Shown piece by piece: positions 1,371 to 46,312 of a DNA stretch of 64,000 bases (positions are counted from its first letter, which is position 1; each line of letters opens with the position of its first letter). This stretch comes from an uncultured Verrucomicrobiota bacterium. Its GTDB lineage: Bacteria > Verrucomicrobiota > Kiritimatiellia > CAIQIC01 > Lenti-01. The stretch covers positions 1 through 64,000 of the forward strand of contig CALMNW010000101.1 in the NCBI GenBank assembly GCA_937872095.1, given 5' to 3'. A program made the translations under genes and the position numbers. The notes under the pieces are model-generated. The model had not been told where the DNA came from. It saw nothing but the letters and a program-made list of their open reading frames with translations, and did no database searches.

Positions 1371-1415
1371 GCCCGCCACCTCCGCGGCAAATCGCGGTTC
1401 GCAAGTTTTACGTAG

Positions 1416-1446
1416 CGTGGAAAAAAGTTTTCCACGGTGTGGAAAA
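1416..1446. repeat. Two overlapping GTGGAAAA palindromes
   Basis: CGTGGAAAA and TTTTCCACG (1416-1436, 3-base centre) form one inverted repeat. Its right arm is also the left arm of TTTTCCAC-GGT-GTGGAAAA (1428-1446). The same unit occurs four times inside the YfhO-like gene near 43 kb. It lies between the convergent ackA and lepB genes and may double as a bidirectional hairpin. Confidence 0.8.
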
Positions 1447-1564: not shown

Positions 1565-1581
1565 TTTCCATAGCGTGGAAA
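1565..1581. repeat. Degenerate copy of the GTGGAAA palindrome
   Basis: TTTCCA-TAGCG-TGGAAA is a weaker member of the palindrome family seen at 1416-1446 and 42902-43015. It ends seven bases before the lepB stop codon. Confidence 0.6.
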
Positions 1582-40885: not shown

Positions 40886-41932
40886 TCACCCTTGTTGCCG
40901 CCCGCTTTTCTCGCTGAAATCCGCGCCCGGCCGGATTATTTCGGTCCATTCGGCCAATCCATAGGCCAGATGCATCCACGGGATCATGGCCCCGAGCCAC
41001 CAATCGCCCCCCCGCCGCGTCCGCGCGACCGTTTCCGCCGCCACCCCGAGCGCTCCCAGCGCATACACCCCCAGATCGACCGCCAACAATCCGAGCGCCC
41101 ACGGGAAAAACGGCGCCAGCAGGGCCAAAACCGCCGTCCCCCCGACCCACAAGCCCGGCACCAGCGGCAGCGGGTTGAACGACACCCCCCCCCGCAGCAA
41201 CCGGATGCGGGTCGCCCCGTAGGTCCACATCTGCCGCCAAAACCGCGCCAGCGATTGGCGCGGATAGTGCTTCACCCAGGCCGCCGGGGCAAACATCAGC
41301 TTCCAGCCCGCCTGCTCCGTCCGGTACGCCGCGATCATTTCCTCGCCCGGATAGAAATCCGCCGGAAATCCGCCCATTTGCGCGAACGCCTCCCGCCGAT
41401 AGGCCGCGTTGCAACCGATGACCCGGTCCCAGTCGATGGCATAGGCCGCGTCCCGGTTCCGCTGGTAGCGCTCCGCCACGTAGCCCGCCGCGCGCGACGA
41501 CAGCGCCAAACCGGCCAGCCGGCCGATCCGGTTGATGTCGTCGGGCACCAGGCTCGGTCCGCTCGCCAACCCGACTTTCGCATCCGCGAACGGCTCCGCG
41601 ATGCGCTCCGGCCAATCCGGCGCCACCACCACGTCGTCGTCCAGAAATGCGATCAACGGCGCGCGCGCTTCCGCCGCCCCCGCGTTTTTCTTGCGGCTCG
41701 AATCGCCCGTTTCAAACTGGATGTCCAGATGGCGAACGTTCGCGTGTCGCGCGCAGAATGCCGCCAGCCGCGCCACCACGTCCGCATCCGGCACCCGGCC
41801 GGCCACGATCGTTTCGAGCCGGTCGAATCCGGCCGCCGCCGCCAGCGATTCCAGCGTGCGGATCAGGATGTCCCGCCCCATCGTGGGAATCACGACGGAC
41901 AGCACCGGGACCGCTTCCGTTCCGCCGTTCAC
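40886..41932 (-). CDS. Glycosyltransferase family 2 with C-terminal membrane helices
   Basis: 348 residues. VLSVVIPTMGRDILIRTLESL, SSRKKNAGAAEARAPLIAFLDDDV (the DDD metal site) and GCNAAYRREAFAQMGGFPADFYPGEE are GT2 signatures. Two or three hydrophobic segments lie near 255-310. The start is a GTG at 41932 that overlaps the YfhO-like stop codon as GTGA; a longer frame to 42007 would run deep into that gene. Translation coupling suggests that the two proteins act together on a surface or lipid-linked glycan (inference). Confidence 0.85.
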   Translation of the reverse strand: MNGGTEAVPVLSVVIPTMGRDILIRTLESLAAAAGFDRLETIVAGRVPDADVVARLAAFCARHANVRHLDIQFETGDSSRKKNAGAAEARAPLIAFLDDDVVVAPDWPERIAEPFADAKVGLASGPSLVPDDINRIGRLAGLALSSRAAGYVAERYQRNRDAAYAIDWDRVIGCNAAYRREAFAQMGGFPADFYPGEEMIAAYRTEQAGWKLMFAPAAWVKHYPRQSLARFWRQMWTYGATRIRLLRGGVSFNPLPLVPGLWVGGTAVLALLAPFFPWALGLLAVDLGVYALGALGVAAETVARTRRGGDWWLGAMIPWMHLAYGLAEWTEIIRPGADFSEKSGRQQG

Positions 41933-44493
41933 GCCGTCAGCTCTTTCCGGCGCCGAGGACACGCCAAAACGCCGGCAGCCCCCAGGCCAATCAGGATTCC
42001 AACCCATTGCAGCAGAATGGGGAAAGAAGATGGACGATACGCCATTTCCACCCGGTGCGTCCCCGCTTTCTCCAGCGCGATTCCCTGGAACATGTAGTCG
42101 ACCCGCAGCACCGGAACGGACGCTCCGTCCACCGTGGCTTTCCAGTTCGGATCGAATTTTTCCGCCACGCGCACGATCGTGGGCCCCTGGTTTTTCACCG
42201 TGAATTCATAGCGCCCTGGAATTGCCCGCTCGATGGCGACTTCCGCCGGCGGTCCCTGATCGCCTACCGGCGGCGCAGGTGCGTCGCTGCCGGGCGCCAG
42301 CAGAACCGTCGCATACGGAACGAAGGTCGGATCCGCCAAGGTCCGCAGCGCCTCCGCATCCTCCGCCGTGCGCCACGCCGGCACCGCCGCCACCCGGGGC
42401 GGAATCGACTTCATCTTCAACACCGTTTCCGGCGCGTTCGCGTTCGCGGGAACGCTGCGCACGGCGATGCCGCCCCGGCCGTCGTCCATCGGCTGATAGG
42501 CCCACGCCAATTCCAGTTGCGCCGCCCATTCCGGATTCGCCAGCAGTTGCGCCGCCACCGGCCCGTGCGCCAGCACGTGGCTCACGGCCGCCAGCCGCCA
42601 CATCCGCACCGGATCCTGAACCGCGTTCCAGAACGCCACGTAGTCCGCCGGCGGACGCGGGAGCTGCGTGACTTCGATCGTCGGTATTCCTTGGTACGGA
42701 AACAGATAAGTCAGCCAGAAATTGTAGAATCCGTCCTTCGTGGCCATCGCCGTCCGTTGGTAGCCGACTTCGCGCTTGAGGTAGCGCACCAGTTCGTTCT
42801 CCGCCACGTAGCCGGTCGGCATCGTCTGGATGTAATGCGGCGCCAAGATCACCGCCGCGTCGAACAGCACCACGATCGCCGGCAGCCACGCGCCCCACGA
42901 ATTTTTCCACGCCGTGGAAAATACCTGTCCCGCCGCGACGGGATTTTTTCCACGCTGTGGAAAAGTTTCGCCGTTTTTTCCACGCTGTGGAAAAGGTTTT
43001 CCCACGCCGTGGAAAACGCTCCGCGCCAACCACCACAGGATGCCCGCGCCGATCGCGAGCGCGACGCCCGCATAGGTCACGCTGAACGCCTTGTTCCACT
43101 GGATGGCCCGGCCCGCCTTGCCCCCCCAGCCCGCCGCCGCCAGCCGTTCCGCGCCCTCGCCCAGATCCGCCCACAGCGCCAAGCCCGCTAACAGGAAGAT
43201 GCCGGCCGCGATTCCCGCGCCCCACTGCCATTTCCGCGACGCGCGGGGTTCCAGTTTTATCGCGGCATCCAGCCCGAACGCCGCCAGCACCCCCCAGGCC
43301 ATCTGGAAAAAGTGGATGAACTTGTTCGGATTGCGGATGCTGCCGAACCCCGGCAGCCACGTCAGCGGCCGGTACAGCGGAAAGAACTTCCCGAACGCCA
43401 GCAGCAGGGCCGCGAGGCAAAGCCCGCCCCAGACGAAAATCGCGGCCGACGGCGAATCGTCTTCGCGCCGCCGCCCGAACGCCGTCGCCAGCCCCAGCAC
43501 CGCGAACAGCAGCGGCACCGCTCCCACGTAGACGTTTTCCAGCTTGAAATTCATGAAGCCCTGGCGCGTCTGTTCGTAGCCGTCGCTCCGGCCCATCTGG
43601 CCCCAGTACGGCCCTTGTTCGTCGCCGCTGCGCCAACCTGTCCAGCCCGGCGCGATGAAATCCAGGCTTTCGCCGGGCGGTTGGCTCCACTGCGTGAGAT
43701 ACGACCATTTCGCCGCCGCGTCCTCGCCGCCCGGGATATCCTCCACGCCCGATCCCTTCGCCGCCAGCGAAGCTCCGCCCGCCAGCAGGGCCGCCACCAG
43801 CAGCGCGCCCCACGATTTCTTCGCCAGCGCCGCGACGTTCCAGCCGCCCGCCGCGCGCGAGGCCTCGAACGCGCCCAGCGGAACCAGCAGCAGCGCGCAG
43901 AACAACGCGACGTCCGCCTGTTCCAAGAACATCGCGCCCGCCGCCGCGCCCGCCGCCACGCTCCAGGCCATTCGGCCGGTTTTTCCCCACCGCCCCAGCG
44001 CGAAAACCGCCAGCGCCAGGAACACCATGGTCCCGTACTTGCCCACGTGCCCCGCATAAGTCAGCGTCAGGTTCGTCCCCACCCAGAACGCCACCAGCCC
44101 GCCGAACGCGCACGCCGCAGCCCGCAGCCCCTTGTCCCGCAGATACAGCGCCAGCAGCCAGGCCGCGAGGGCCAGGCACAGGCCGTGGTACGTGTTCATG
44201 AACAGCGTCGCCGGCACGGCCTTCAGCAGGAAATAGCCGGGCCGCACCATGCTCATCGTGGGCATCCCCCACAGCGCCGCCCCCATCCACGGATGCACCG
44301 CGGACGCCTCCAGCATCCGCTGGTTCATGCGCAGCAGGCCCACGTTGTCGTCGCTGCTCATCAGCACCGTCCCCGGCGCCCACAGCACGTGGAAAACCAG
44401 CGCCGCCGCCACCGCGAACAACGCCAAGAGAAGAAAGCCCGGCGCCCGCCCCCTGCGCCCCGTCGACACCGCTTGCGGCTGAATGGATTTCAT
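41929..44493 (-). CDS. YfhO-family integral membrane protein, interrupted by an in-frame palindromic-repeat insert
   Basis: 854 residues. About 12 membrane helices span residues 18-560, followed by a periplasmic C-terminal domain and a final helix (about 825-845). VLMSSDDNVGLLRMNQRMLEAS, NLTLTYAGHVGKYGTMV and RNPNKFIHFFQMAWGVL match YfhO-like GT-C proteins, which are thought to decorate teichoic acids or lipids with sugars. Residues 493-531 lie in a loop between two helices and are encoded by four copies of a palindromic repeat. They read FHGVGK, FPQRGK, FPQRGK and FSTAWK, and look unrelated to the family. The frame stays open, so the gene probably remains functional. Confidence 0.82.
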   Translation of the reverse strand: MKSIQPQAVSTGRRGRAPGFLLLALFAVAAALVFHVLWAPGTVLMSSDDNVGLLRMNQRMLEASAVHPWMGAALWGMPTMSMVRPGYFLLKAVPATLFMNTYHGLCLALAAWLLALYLRDKGLRAAACAFGGLVAFWVGTNLTLTYAGHVGKYGTMVFLALAVFALGRWGKTGRMAWSVAAGAAAGAMFLEQADVALFCALLLVPLGAFEASRAAGGWNVAALAKKSWGALLVAALLAGGASLAAKGSGVEDIPGGEDAAAKWSYLTQWSQPPGESLDFIAPGWTGWRSGDEQGPYWGQMGRSDGYEQTRQGFMNFKLENVYVGAVPLLFAVLGLATAFGRRREDDSPSAAIFVWGGLCLAALLLAFGKFFPLYRPLTWLPGFGSIRNPNKFIHFFQMAWGVLAAFGLDAAIKLEPRASRKWQWGAGIAAGIFLLAGLALWADLGEGAERLAAAGWGGKAGRAIQWNKAFSVTYAGVALAIGAGILWWLARSVFHGVGKPFPQRGKNGETFPQRGKNPVAAGQVFSTAWKNSWGAWLPAIVVLFDAAVILAPHYIQTMPTGYVAENELVRYLKREVGYQRTAMATKDGFYNFWLTYLFPYQGIPTIEVTQLPRPPADYVAFWNAVQDPVRMWRLAAVSHVLAHGPVAAQLLANPEWAAQLELAWAYQPMDDGRGGIAVRSVPANANAPETVLKMKSIPPRVAAVPAWRTAEDAEALRTLADPTFVPYATVLLAPGSDAPAPPVGDQGPPAEVAIERAIPGRYEFTVKNQGPTIVRVAEKFDPNWKATVDGASVPVLRVDYMFQGIALEKAGTHRVEMAYRPSSFPILLQWVGILIGLGAAGVLACPRRRKELTA
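42902..43015. repeat. Cluster of four GTGGAAAA palindromes inside a coding sequence
   Basis: Four palindromic units lie near 42902-42921, 42944-42964, 42974-42994 and 42998-43015. The first is TTTTCCACGCCGTGGAAAA (nine-base arms, one-base centre). The next two have eight-base arms around GCT. The last has an extra C in its left arm. The copies are separated by short spacers and preserve the reading frame of the YfhO-like gene. Confidence 0.85.
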
Positions 44494-44545
44494 CCCGCCA
44501 TCAAAAGGATTTCCGTCTCCGCTGGCAATCCCAAAACGGAACCAG

Positions 44546-46312
44546 TCAGGATTCCAATTCGGCCCAGCGGGCATAGAGCCGGTCGAGTTCCGGCGGGATT
44601 TCCGCCGTACGCGCCGTGGCGGCCTGGATGTCCGCCGGCGCGCCCTTGTAGAAGTCCGGCGCGGCCATCCGCGCATGCAGCGCATCCAACTCGGACTCCA
44701 GCGCGGTGATCCGCCCCGGGAGTTCCTGCAGCTCCTTGCGTTCCTTGTTGGACAGCTTGCGCGGGGTTCCCGCCGCTACCTTCTCCGGCGCGGGTTGTTC
44801 CGGCGATTTTTCCGGTTCGGAAACCTTGCGCTGCTTCAACCAATCGTCGTAGCCGCCCGGGTATTCCCGCACCGCGCCGGCCCCTTCGAAAACCAGCGTG
44901 CTGGTGACCACCTCGTTCAGGAACTGGCGGTCGTGGCTGACCAGCAGCACCGTGCCGGCATATTCCACCAGCAGATCCTCGATCAGCTCGAGCGTCTCCA
45001 GATCGAGATCGTTCGTCGGTTCGTCGAGCACCAGCACGTTCGATGGCCGCGCGAACAACTTCGCCAGCAGCAGGCGGCTGCGCTCCCCGCCCGACAGCGC
45101 CCGCACCGGGCTGCGCGCGCGATCCGGCGCGAACAGGAATTCCTCCAGATAGCCGATCACGTGCTTCCGCCGGCCGTTCACGGTCACGGTTTCGTTGCCG
45201 TCGGCGACGTTGTCGAACACCGTCTTGTCCTCGTCCAGCACCGCGCGCATCTGGTCGAAATAGGAAATTTCCAGCTTCGTGCCGTGTTCCACCGCGCCTT
45301 CGTCCGGCGCCTCCTGCCCGAGCAGGACGCGGATCAGGGTGGATTTGCCGCACCCGTTCGGCCCCAGGATGCCGATCTTGTCCCCGCGGCAGATTTCGAC
45401 GTCCAGCCCGCGGAAGAGGAAGCGTCCCTCGTAAGCCAGCCCCAGGTTTTTAGCCATGACGACCTTGTAGCCCGAGCGGCCCGATTCCTGCAAGGTGGCC
45501 TTGACGATTCCGCCCTGCTCGCGGCGGGCGGCGCGTTCGGACCGCAGTTTCAGCAGCTCGCGCACGCGTCCTTCGTTGCGCGTGCGCCGCGCCTTCACGC
45601 CGCGCCGCAGCCACGCCTCTTCCTGCGCCAGCTTCTTGTCGAAAACCGCGTTTTGCCGCTCCTCGTCTTCCAGCGCGGCGGCCTTGCGCTCCAGAAACTG
45701 GTCGTAGCCGCAGGCCCACGAGCGCAACCGCCCGCGGTCCAGTTCGACGATCCGCGTCGCCAGCTTGCGCAGGAACGCCCGGTCGTGCGTCACGAACAGG
45801 ATCGCCCCCGGAAACCGCACCAAGAAAGTTTCCAGCCACTCGATGGACTCCACGTCGAGATGGTTCGTGGGCTCGTCCAGCAGCAGCACGTCCGGATCCG
45901 CGGCCAGCGCCTGCGCCAGCAGCACCCGCCGCTTCATTCCGCCCGACAATGTCGCGCAATCCGCCGCCGGATCGAGATCCATCAGCGACACGACTTTGTT
46001 CGCCTGCACGTCGCGGCGGGCGGCATCCAGGCCGGGCCGCACCCCCTTCCGCACCGTTTCCAGCACGGTTCCCGGAAAGTGTTCCGGCACCAGCTGCGGC
46101 ATCATCGCAACCGTCAGATTCCGCGTCCGCACCACCTCGCCCGCATCCGGCTCCAGCTCCCCCGCCGCGACCTTCAGGAAGGTGGACTTGCCCTCGCCGT
46201 TCCGGCCGAGCAGGCAGACCCGCTCGCCGCGCTCGACGTTCAGCGTCGCGCCCTCCAGCAGCCACGGGCCGCCGAAACGCACGGAAATATCCTGAAGGCT
46301 CAACAAGGCCAT
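44546..46312 (-). CDS. uup: ABC-F ATPase, Uup-like
   Basis: 588 residues, two ABC domains and no membrane segments. Walker A motifs are GRNGEGKST and GPNGCGKST, signatures LSGGMKRR and LSGGERSR, and Walker B LLLDEPTNHLD and LVLDEPTNDLD. The linker between domains contains the charged Arg-rich helix pair of ABC-F proteins. After the second domain, a Pro/Glu linker leads to a coiled-coil C-terminal domain (KLSNKERKELQELPGRI...), as in Uup, which binds DNA or ribosomes. It may be a translation factor or act on branched DNA. It sits 52 bases before the YfhO-like gene. Confidence 0.9.
   Translation of the reverse strand: MALLSLQDISVRFGGPWLLEGATLNVERGERVCLLGRNGEGKSTFLKVAAGELEPDAGEVVRTRNLTVAMMPQLVPEHFPGTVLETVRKGVRPGLDAARRDVQANKVVSLMDLDPAADCATLSGGMKRRVLLAQALAADPDVLLLDEPTNHLDVESIEWLETFLVRFPGAILFVTHDRAFLRKLATRIVELDRGRLRSWACGYDQFLERKAAALEDEERQNAVFDKKLAQEEAWLRRGVKARRTRNEGRVRELLKLRSERAARREQGGIVKATLQESGRSGYKVVMAKNLGLAYEGRFLFRGLDVEICRGDKIGILGPNGCGKSTLIRVLLGQEAPDEGAVEHGTKLEISYFDQMRAVLDEDKTVFDNVADGNETVTVNGRRKHVIGYLEEFLFAPDRARSPVRALSGGERSRLLLAKLFARPSNVLVLDEPTNDLDLETLELIEDLLVEYAGTVLLVSHDRQFLNEVVTSTLVFEGAGAVREYPGGYDDWLKQRKVSEPEKSPEQPAPEKVAAGTPRKLSNKERKELQELPGRITALESELDALHARMAAPDFYKGAPADIQAATARTAEIPPELDRLYARWAELES

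Follow-up and report, generated by a model that had tools for sequence, protein, structure and literature searches.

What is a palindrome that stands four times, in frame, within one protein-coding gene: an element that was inserted there, or a site that is read in the DNA itself? The question is raised by the window analysed here, a stretch of 64,000 nucleotides (contig CALMNW010000101.1) from an uncultured bacterium of the class Kiritimatiellia, whose genome is referred to as G000 and whose family, of 17 genomes, as f1. Four palindromes of the form TTTTCCAC-NNN-GTGGAAAA lie in frame inside a minus-strand open reading frame (ORF) for a YfhO-like protein, at 41929..44685 (Table 1). A first-pass annotation, made from the letters alone, had described them as an insert of about 39 residues that uses all three frames of one strand and is free of stops in every frame, and these statements held. 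Four matches were located, the last of them with one mismatch, the gene strand reads them as FHGVGK, FPQRGK, FPQRGK and FSTAWK, so that all three frames are used, and the 115-bp stretch of the array is stop-free in six of six frames. The insert was measured at 38–39 residues, with a residue numbering that varies with the start codon chosen.

The observation is real and wider than was first stated. The invariant core of the repeat is TTTTCCA-N5-TGGAAAA, each 7-bp arm being one half, and 177 exact copies of it were found in the window's own genome; TTTTCCACNNNGTGGAAAA sites with at most one mismatch numbered 185 there, against 0 for the reversed control, and the repeat is thus genome-wide and far above chance, as the first-pass annotation had supposed. 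When up to 3 mismatches are allowed, the window alone holds 17 matches, against 1.40 expected and a maximum of 6 in 100 shuffles. A search of related genomes, which had been proposed as a check, revealed copies across the class, with at least one exact core copy in 105 of the 345 Kiritimatiellia genomes, at least 20 in 58 of them and a top count of 718, while the reversed control stayed at 1 or below in every one. In the 256 genomes outside the class (from a phylum sample of 387) the core count was at most 7, and the core is nearly confined to Kiritimatiellia in the samples searched. When exact palindromes with 7-bp arms were ranked, this one or its 1-bp-shifted form headed the list in each of the six site-rich genomes sampled, and it was outside the top eight in both site-free relatives tested. 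A scan of a species-level genome collection for paired palindromes returned at least 107 stretches, the matches listed including Kiritimatiellae/Kiritimatiellales, Lentisphaerae, a verrucomicrobial group and "uncultured bacterium".

How did the sites come to be within genes? Orthologues of the YfhO-like gene were identified in 16 of the 17 family genomes, its own included, and in nine of these the same loop carries three or more palindromes, counted with up to 2 mismatches. The loop is without palindromes in G001, G006, G007, G010 and G015, degenerate in G013 and cut by the contig end in G005. Absence of the segment from relatives had been named as the sign of an insertion, and indeed the array is missing in G001, where the loop is short; judged from this comparison of sequences, YfhO is a case with a real length gain in the array carriers. 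In G006 the loop is non-palindromic and of a length similar to the arrays, perhaps because this lineage lost whatever maintains the sites. G006, a member of the window's genus, has 14 exact sites, compared with 89–253 in the six other members, and may be a natural loss line.

Certain other genes differ from YfhO in this respect, as the sites added no length to them. We read 30 fumarase loci, with 85 genomes matched, and in 10 of them the helix that precedes GRTHLQD holds 1–3 sites (up to 1 mismatch); the carriers are nine genomes of family f25 and G077 of family f24. The other 20 have a plain helix of the same length without a site, and the site slots differ between sister species by few substitutions. 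In G106, ClpX, a MurC-like ligase and CoaBC aligned without gaps through their sites to the best solved homologue, and in NamZ (L116) there looked to be a replacement without insertion, which was judged by eye only. As the length is the same in fumarase and the three enzymes align gaplessly, the palindrome was put into native codons rather than inserted, and the process in f25 is substitution, not insertion, wherever it can be traced. The mismatch spectra are graded, with 17, 40 and 46 sites of 0, 1 and 2 mismatches in G106 and 22, 28 and 25 in G017. The MurC-like gene of G106 (L268:3071-4327) has several FQ words typical of the palindrome, namely FQTLEK, FQCMEK and FQCLEK.

The distances between neighbouring sites were analysed in 1.88 Mb of contiguous DNA with 328 sites (at most one mismatch in a 12-base core), after removal of 14 duplicate sites. 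Among 125 neighbour steps of up to 130 bp, 109 measured 22 or 30–32 bp, with a resultant length R of 0.88 for a period of 10.5. Steps above 33 bp, of which the contiguous DNA and the deduplicated loci supplied 28, gave an R of 0.78, where the maximum of 20000 uniform draws was 0.54. In family f25 alone, all 18 steps (30, 31 four times, 32 four times, 42 three times, 52, 53, 63, 73, 83 and 84 bp) were near whole turns, with an R of 0.947 against a maximum of 0.70 in 20000 draws. In the range of 21–33 bp, steps of 23 and 25–28 bp never occurred. Weak sites (2–4 mismatches) near strong ones were also phased, most clearly in f25 and f1, and a 31-bp unit dominated their spacing in families f2–4. 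The whole-turn spacing that marks arrays of cooperative protein-binding sites was thus found here. Phased neighbours within genes of unchanged length, fumarase and CoaBC, are hard to explain by duplication of a unit, and are the trace that would be expected of a protein bound along a single helix face. A protein-binding site was one of the options first listed for the repeat, and the helical phasing is in line with it; a structured RNA element was another, from which the same phasing points away, to a DNA-binding protein.

The inner bases vary with the lineage: CAC..GTG predominates in G000, CAC arms stand beside CAT arms in G001, G011 has AAT..ATT and G017 has AAG..CTT. The YfhO loops show CAC..GTG in six genomes, AAT..RTT in G011 and G014, where this is the local dialect, and another variant, ATTCAAT, in G008. 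A second half-site, TTTTACGT, was also seen in 394.5 kb of the window's own genome; it forms palindromes with another copy of itself or with TTTTCCAC, and these keep to the same steps (28 AA, 11 AB or BA and 3 BB pairs by half-site type). The pattern resembles that of half-sites for dimers whose specificity is of more than one kind. Of the 364 arm positions in six YfhO arrays, 349 equal the consensus, a figure favoured by the preselection of sites at up to 2 mismatches; for conserved amino acids in the rest of the gene, the codon is shared in 60% of cases on average (0.53–0.70 in 15 pairs). Constraint on the protein alone is insufficient for this conservation of the arms, since they are read in three frames.

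Regarding their placement, 24 of the 63 sites in the f25 stretches were confidently intragenic, with 11, 7 and 6 in the three codon phases. Gene calls on DNA of 57–69% GC are crude and picked antisense frames at some loci, which leaves the numbers of intragenic sites uncertain at these loci. By a stricter test, based on G+C at codon positions, 9 of 198 arrays were clearly intragenic, a set that includes some duplicate loci, and one of the nine (L107) may be a chance match. By the crude gene calls, 40 intergenic arrays were divided into 8 convergent, 6 divergent and 26 same-direction gaps (length-weighted background 17%, 24% and 59%) and lay at a median of 36.5 bp from 3′ ends and 95.5 bp from 5′ ends.

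What has to be accounted for is thus a palindrome that is abundant and, in the samples searched, nearly confined to one class, with phased sites, inner bases that go with the lineage and swapped half-sites, together with the substitution in fumarase and the length gain in YfhO. On this basis we propose, with moderate confidence, that the repeat marks dispersed sites recognised by a putative dimeric DNA-binding protein of Kiritimatiellia that would sit on one helix face; the binding itself, its cooperativity and the selection or drive on the DNA that makes or keeps the sites are what we infer. The core would be read as double-stranded DNA by a dimer or a dimer of dimers, each 7-bp arm serving as one half-site, and neighbouring sites would be occupied together on the same face, which would set their spacing to whole turns. 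Selection or drive at the DNA level would create and keep the sites even at a cost in amino acids, and the YfhO loop, as it presumably tolerates extra length, would let an array (often of steps [22,30,22]) stay as extra residues. The role, still unproven, is most likely chromosome-wide, either a scaffold of the nucleoid or segregation type or the signal of a system for recognition of self DNA. More tentatively, and leaning to doubt ourselves, we suggest a chromosome-wide code of phased half-site pairs for a scaffold protein that drifts between lineages, with genomes rewritten to each new dialect and sites that override the sequence of essential enzymes.

Several points weigh against this proposal. 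Genomes of f2, f3 and f4 that are rich in sites have fumarase loci without any, and core copies range from 0 to 157 inside the single genus f24/g49, which is odd for an essential scaffold. ClpX shows gaps of 1 and 3 residues beside the site when aligned to a second homologue, 8e91_A, and CysS aligns with small gaps. The only place searched for a binding protein or an autoregulated DNA-binding gene was the recurrence of neighbouring genes, and none was found there, as the neighbours that recurred belonged to common families or to a small number of orthologous places shared between genomes. As to the spacing, steps of 24, 29, 33, 59 and 66 bp fit poorly, once each, and many stretches were fetched for their known sites, with loci on genome contigs chosen for pairs 21–33 bp apart, so that the frequencies do not represent a random sample. 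Steps of 22 and 31 bp taken alone could reflect two fixed unit lengths, and the case for phasing therefore depends on f25 and on the less frequent long steps. The sites in f1 are sharply perfect (38 without mismatch and 3 with one in G000; 26 and 4 in G001) and may owe more to copying. A [22,30,22] array with the identical central spacer AAACGGGCGAAA is common to the nucleotidyltransferase gene of G000 and the dihydroorotase gene of G004, an exception among spacers that mostly differ from array to array, and looks like a copied module. In the YfhO gene of G002, a second repeat, K2, sits in frame inside the array, where it separates palindrome 1 from palindrome 2. Taken together, the sharply perfect sites, the shared spacer and the nested K2 indicate that copying probably contributes in f1.

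The main rival to a chromosomal binding site is a motif like a DNA uptake signal, which would spread by biased uptake of self DNA and recombination (molecular drive) and whose reader would be an uptake receptor with no need of a chromosomal role. We regard it as rather unlikely, even if much of the evidence suits it: the substitution in place in fumarase and the gapless ClpX, MurC-like and CoaBC genes, the intragenic share of the f25 sites, the lineage dialects, of a kind described for Neisseriaceae in passages of PMC3630211, and the graded spectrum of G106 and G017 (compare the passages of PMC1939737). It also suits the uneven distribution in G106:C1:1-200000, where 25 palindrome clusters lie at 0–95 kb and 1 at 95–200 kb; ten proteins sampled from the site-poor part included two sulfatases and two glycoside hydrolase matches. 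However, uptake sequences as given in the passages of PMC1939737 are not palindromes, whereas a gapped palindrome of 14 bases is found here, no counterpart to the helically phased arrays appears in the passages of PMC1939737 and PMC3630211, and a graded spectrum is missing in G000 and G001 of f1. The uptake gene ComEC (PF03772) does not discriminate either, as 143 of the 149 genomes with a completeness of 90% or more have it, whether they carry sites or not; it is near universal in the class and was rejected as a marker of site-rich genomes.

That the palindrome is a mobile insert, of the kind of the Rickettsia palindromic elements, repetitive extragenic palindromes (REPs) or miniature inverted-repeat transposable elements (MITEs), tolerated because it is stop-free, appears improbable to us as a general account, and the repeat is mainly not of this type, given the substitution in fumarase, the gapless enzymes and the inner bases that depend on lineage. 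The gain of length over G001 in YfhO, the six open frames, the nested K2 and the central spacer shared by unrelated genes of two species would all fit it. But the unchanged fumarase refutes it as the origin there in f25, the alignments through the ClpX, MurC-like and CoaBC sites have no gaps, the spacers are mostly unrelated, and the phased neighbours in fumarase and CoaBC came with no gain. Thus, of the mobile repeat first suggested, the added length in YfhO stands, but apart from that one spacer no extended element is shared, f25 acquired its sites by substitution wherever this can be traced, and the logic of the Rickettsia elements, entry into genes in any phase, is not supported as the general explanation. 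Neither did the proposed neighbourhood of a transposase emerge: transposases of PF01797 are unlinked to the palindromes in f1, the gene being present in 16 of 17 genomes irrespective of the palindrome count, while G010 (86% complete) lacks it yet carries 72 exact sites. Of 12 PF01797 loci, only 1 had an exact palindrome in the DNA examined, and the other 11 were without. A mobiliser of the REP-associated tyrosine transposase (RAYT) type was thus dropped as a candidate, having no correlation with the repeat in f1. Much less probable still is a structured RNA element or terminator, in which the transcribed palindrome folds to a hairpin. Any palindrome can fold, and the intergenic arrays lie nearer to 3′ ends, but the spacing follows the turns of double-stranded DNA, the convergent, divergent and same-direction split is near its background, and the arms are one fixed sequence without compensatory variants, although the pattern used for the search is biased towards such a result. 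Rfam, applied to two stretches of the window, gave no family at the gathering score, only matches to miRNA models far below it.

The motif was not found described by full-text literature searching or in the passages of PMC4390886, PMC3733652, PMC1939737, PMC3630211 and PMC5217627. The nearest in kind are the highly iterated palindrome HIP1 and the dialects of uptake sequences, from which the repeat is set apart by its long gapped palindrome and helical phasing. HIP1 (GCGATCGC) is, in passages of PMC4390886, a frequent dispersed palindrome of cyanobacterial genomes with exceptional low-count members, and the likeness lies in a palindrome that is both frequent and dispersed within a single bacterial group. 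An over-represented palindrome spread by substitution, as in the HIP1 type, is what we found, and the f1 arrays may differ. HIP1, however, has 8 contiguous bp and is linked to DNA methyltransferases, whereas the Kiritimatiellia core has 14 specified bases, a 5-bp gap, phased arrays and lineage dialects. DNA uptake sequences (DUS) and uptake signal sequences (USS) occur in Neisseriaceae and Pasteurellaceae. They have hundreds of copies or more, also inside genes, and evolve by point mutation (passages of PMC1939737); the many copies, some intragenic, and the lineage dialects are shared with our sites (passages of PMC1939737 and PMC3630211), but uptake sequences are non-palindromic words, unlike the perfect gapped palindromes at whole helical turns seen here. 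Intragenic REPs are known from O. terrae, assigned to Verrucomicrobia, and the Rickettsia palindromic elements RPE-4 and RPE-6 are intragenic repeats of R. conorii (passages of PMC3733652). These are palindromic and lie within protein genes, as ours do, but differ in sequence, and our repeat shows no insertion at fumarase, no link to RAYT in f1 and a phased spacing. ARG boxes and the AT-boxes of ComK are palindromic boxes repeated on one helix face for a multimeric regulator. Such boxes serve few promoters, whereas here hundreds of sites occupy both gaps and gene bodies.

If a signal in the DNA can force tryptophan, proline or phenylalanine words into fumarase, ClpX or CoaBC, the protein sequences of these bacteria cannot be taken as shaped only by what the proteins do. 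With the helical phasing, a DNA-binding reader becomes a directly testable prediction in an under-studied class, and the dialect switches are a natural experiment on the co-evolution of a protein with hundreds of its sites.

Table 1. Palindromic sites and the array-bearing gene, in positions of the window
Feature	Position	Strand	Remarks
YfhO-like membrane protein gene	41929..44685	-	PF09586, E 1e-05, 24.6 bits; curated cut-off 28.5 not reached
In-frame array	42902..43016	-	steps 22, 30, 43 bp (gene order); not in G001 orthologue
Palindrome 4 (gene order)	42903..42921	.	FSTAWK frame, TTTTCCACGCCGTGGAAAA
Palindrome 3 (gene order)	42946..42964	.	FPQRGK frame
Palindrome 2 (gene order)	42976..42994	.	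FPQRGK frame
Palindrome 1 (gene order)	42998..43016	.	FHGVGK frame, one mismatch
Hybrid palindrome	1406..1424	.	arms TTTTCCAC + TTTTACGT (half-site swap)
Intergenic palindrome	1428..1446	.	22 bp from hybrid at 1406..1424
Intergenic palindrome	1565..1581	.	TTTCCATAGCGTGGAAA, exact 17-bp core without outermost T and A

The last of the intergenic palindromes stands 136 bp, or about 13 helical turns, from the one before it. Between the two, at 1447-1564, the window has a copy of K2, a GC-rich repeat of about 110 bp with hairpins such as GCTCCGCGAGCGGAGC and TATAGCGCCGCGCC that is located beside or between palindromes; other copies were seen in L015, near 55972 and 87154 of contig C14 of G000, and in L056, the YfhO gene of G002.

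Arrays adjoin the same genes in several genomes (L135, L148 and L176; L125, L139, L151, L158 and G001 C29 71118). One such neighbour, which we take to be a pheS-like gene, is downstream of the array in three genomes with different inner bases, and others near arrays are presumably yggU- and hypD-like genes. A viral carrier was considered and rejected, as L195 (IMGVR_UViG_3300035698_006241), which may be host sequence, was the sole viral contig with paired palindromes among the matches listed in the scan. A different palindrome, CGCACCC-N3-GGGTGCG, was detected in 11 copies within 200 kb of another genome (G037:C1:100001-300000).

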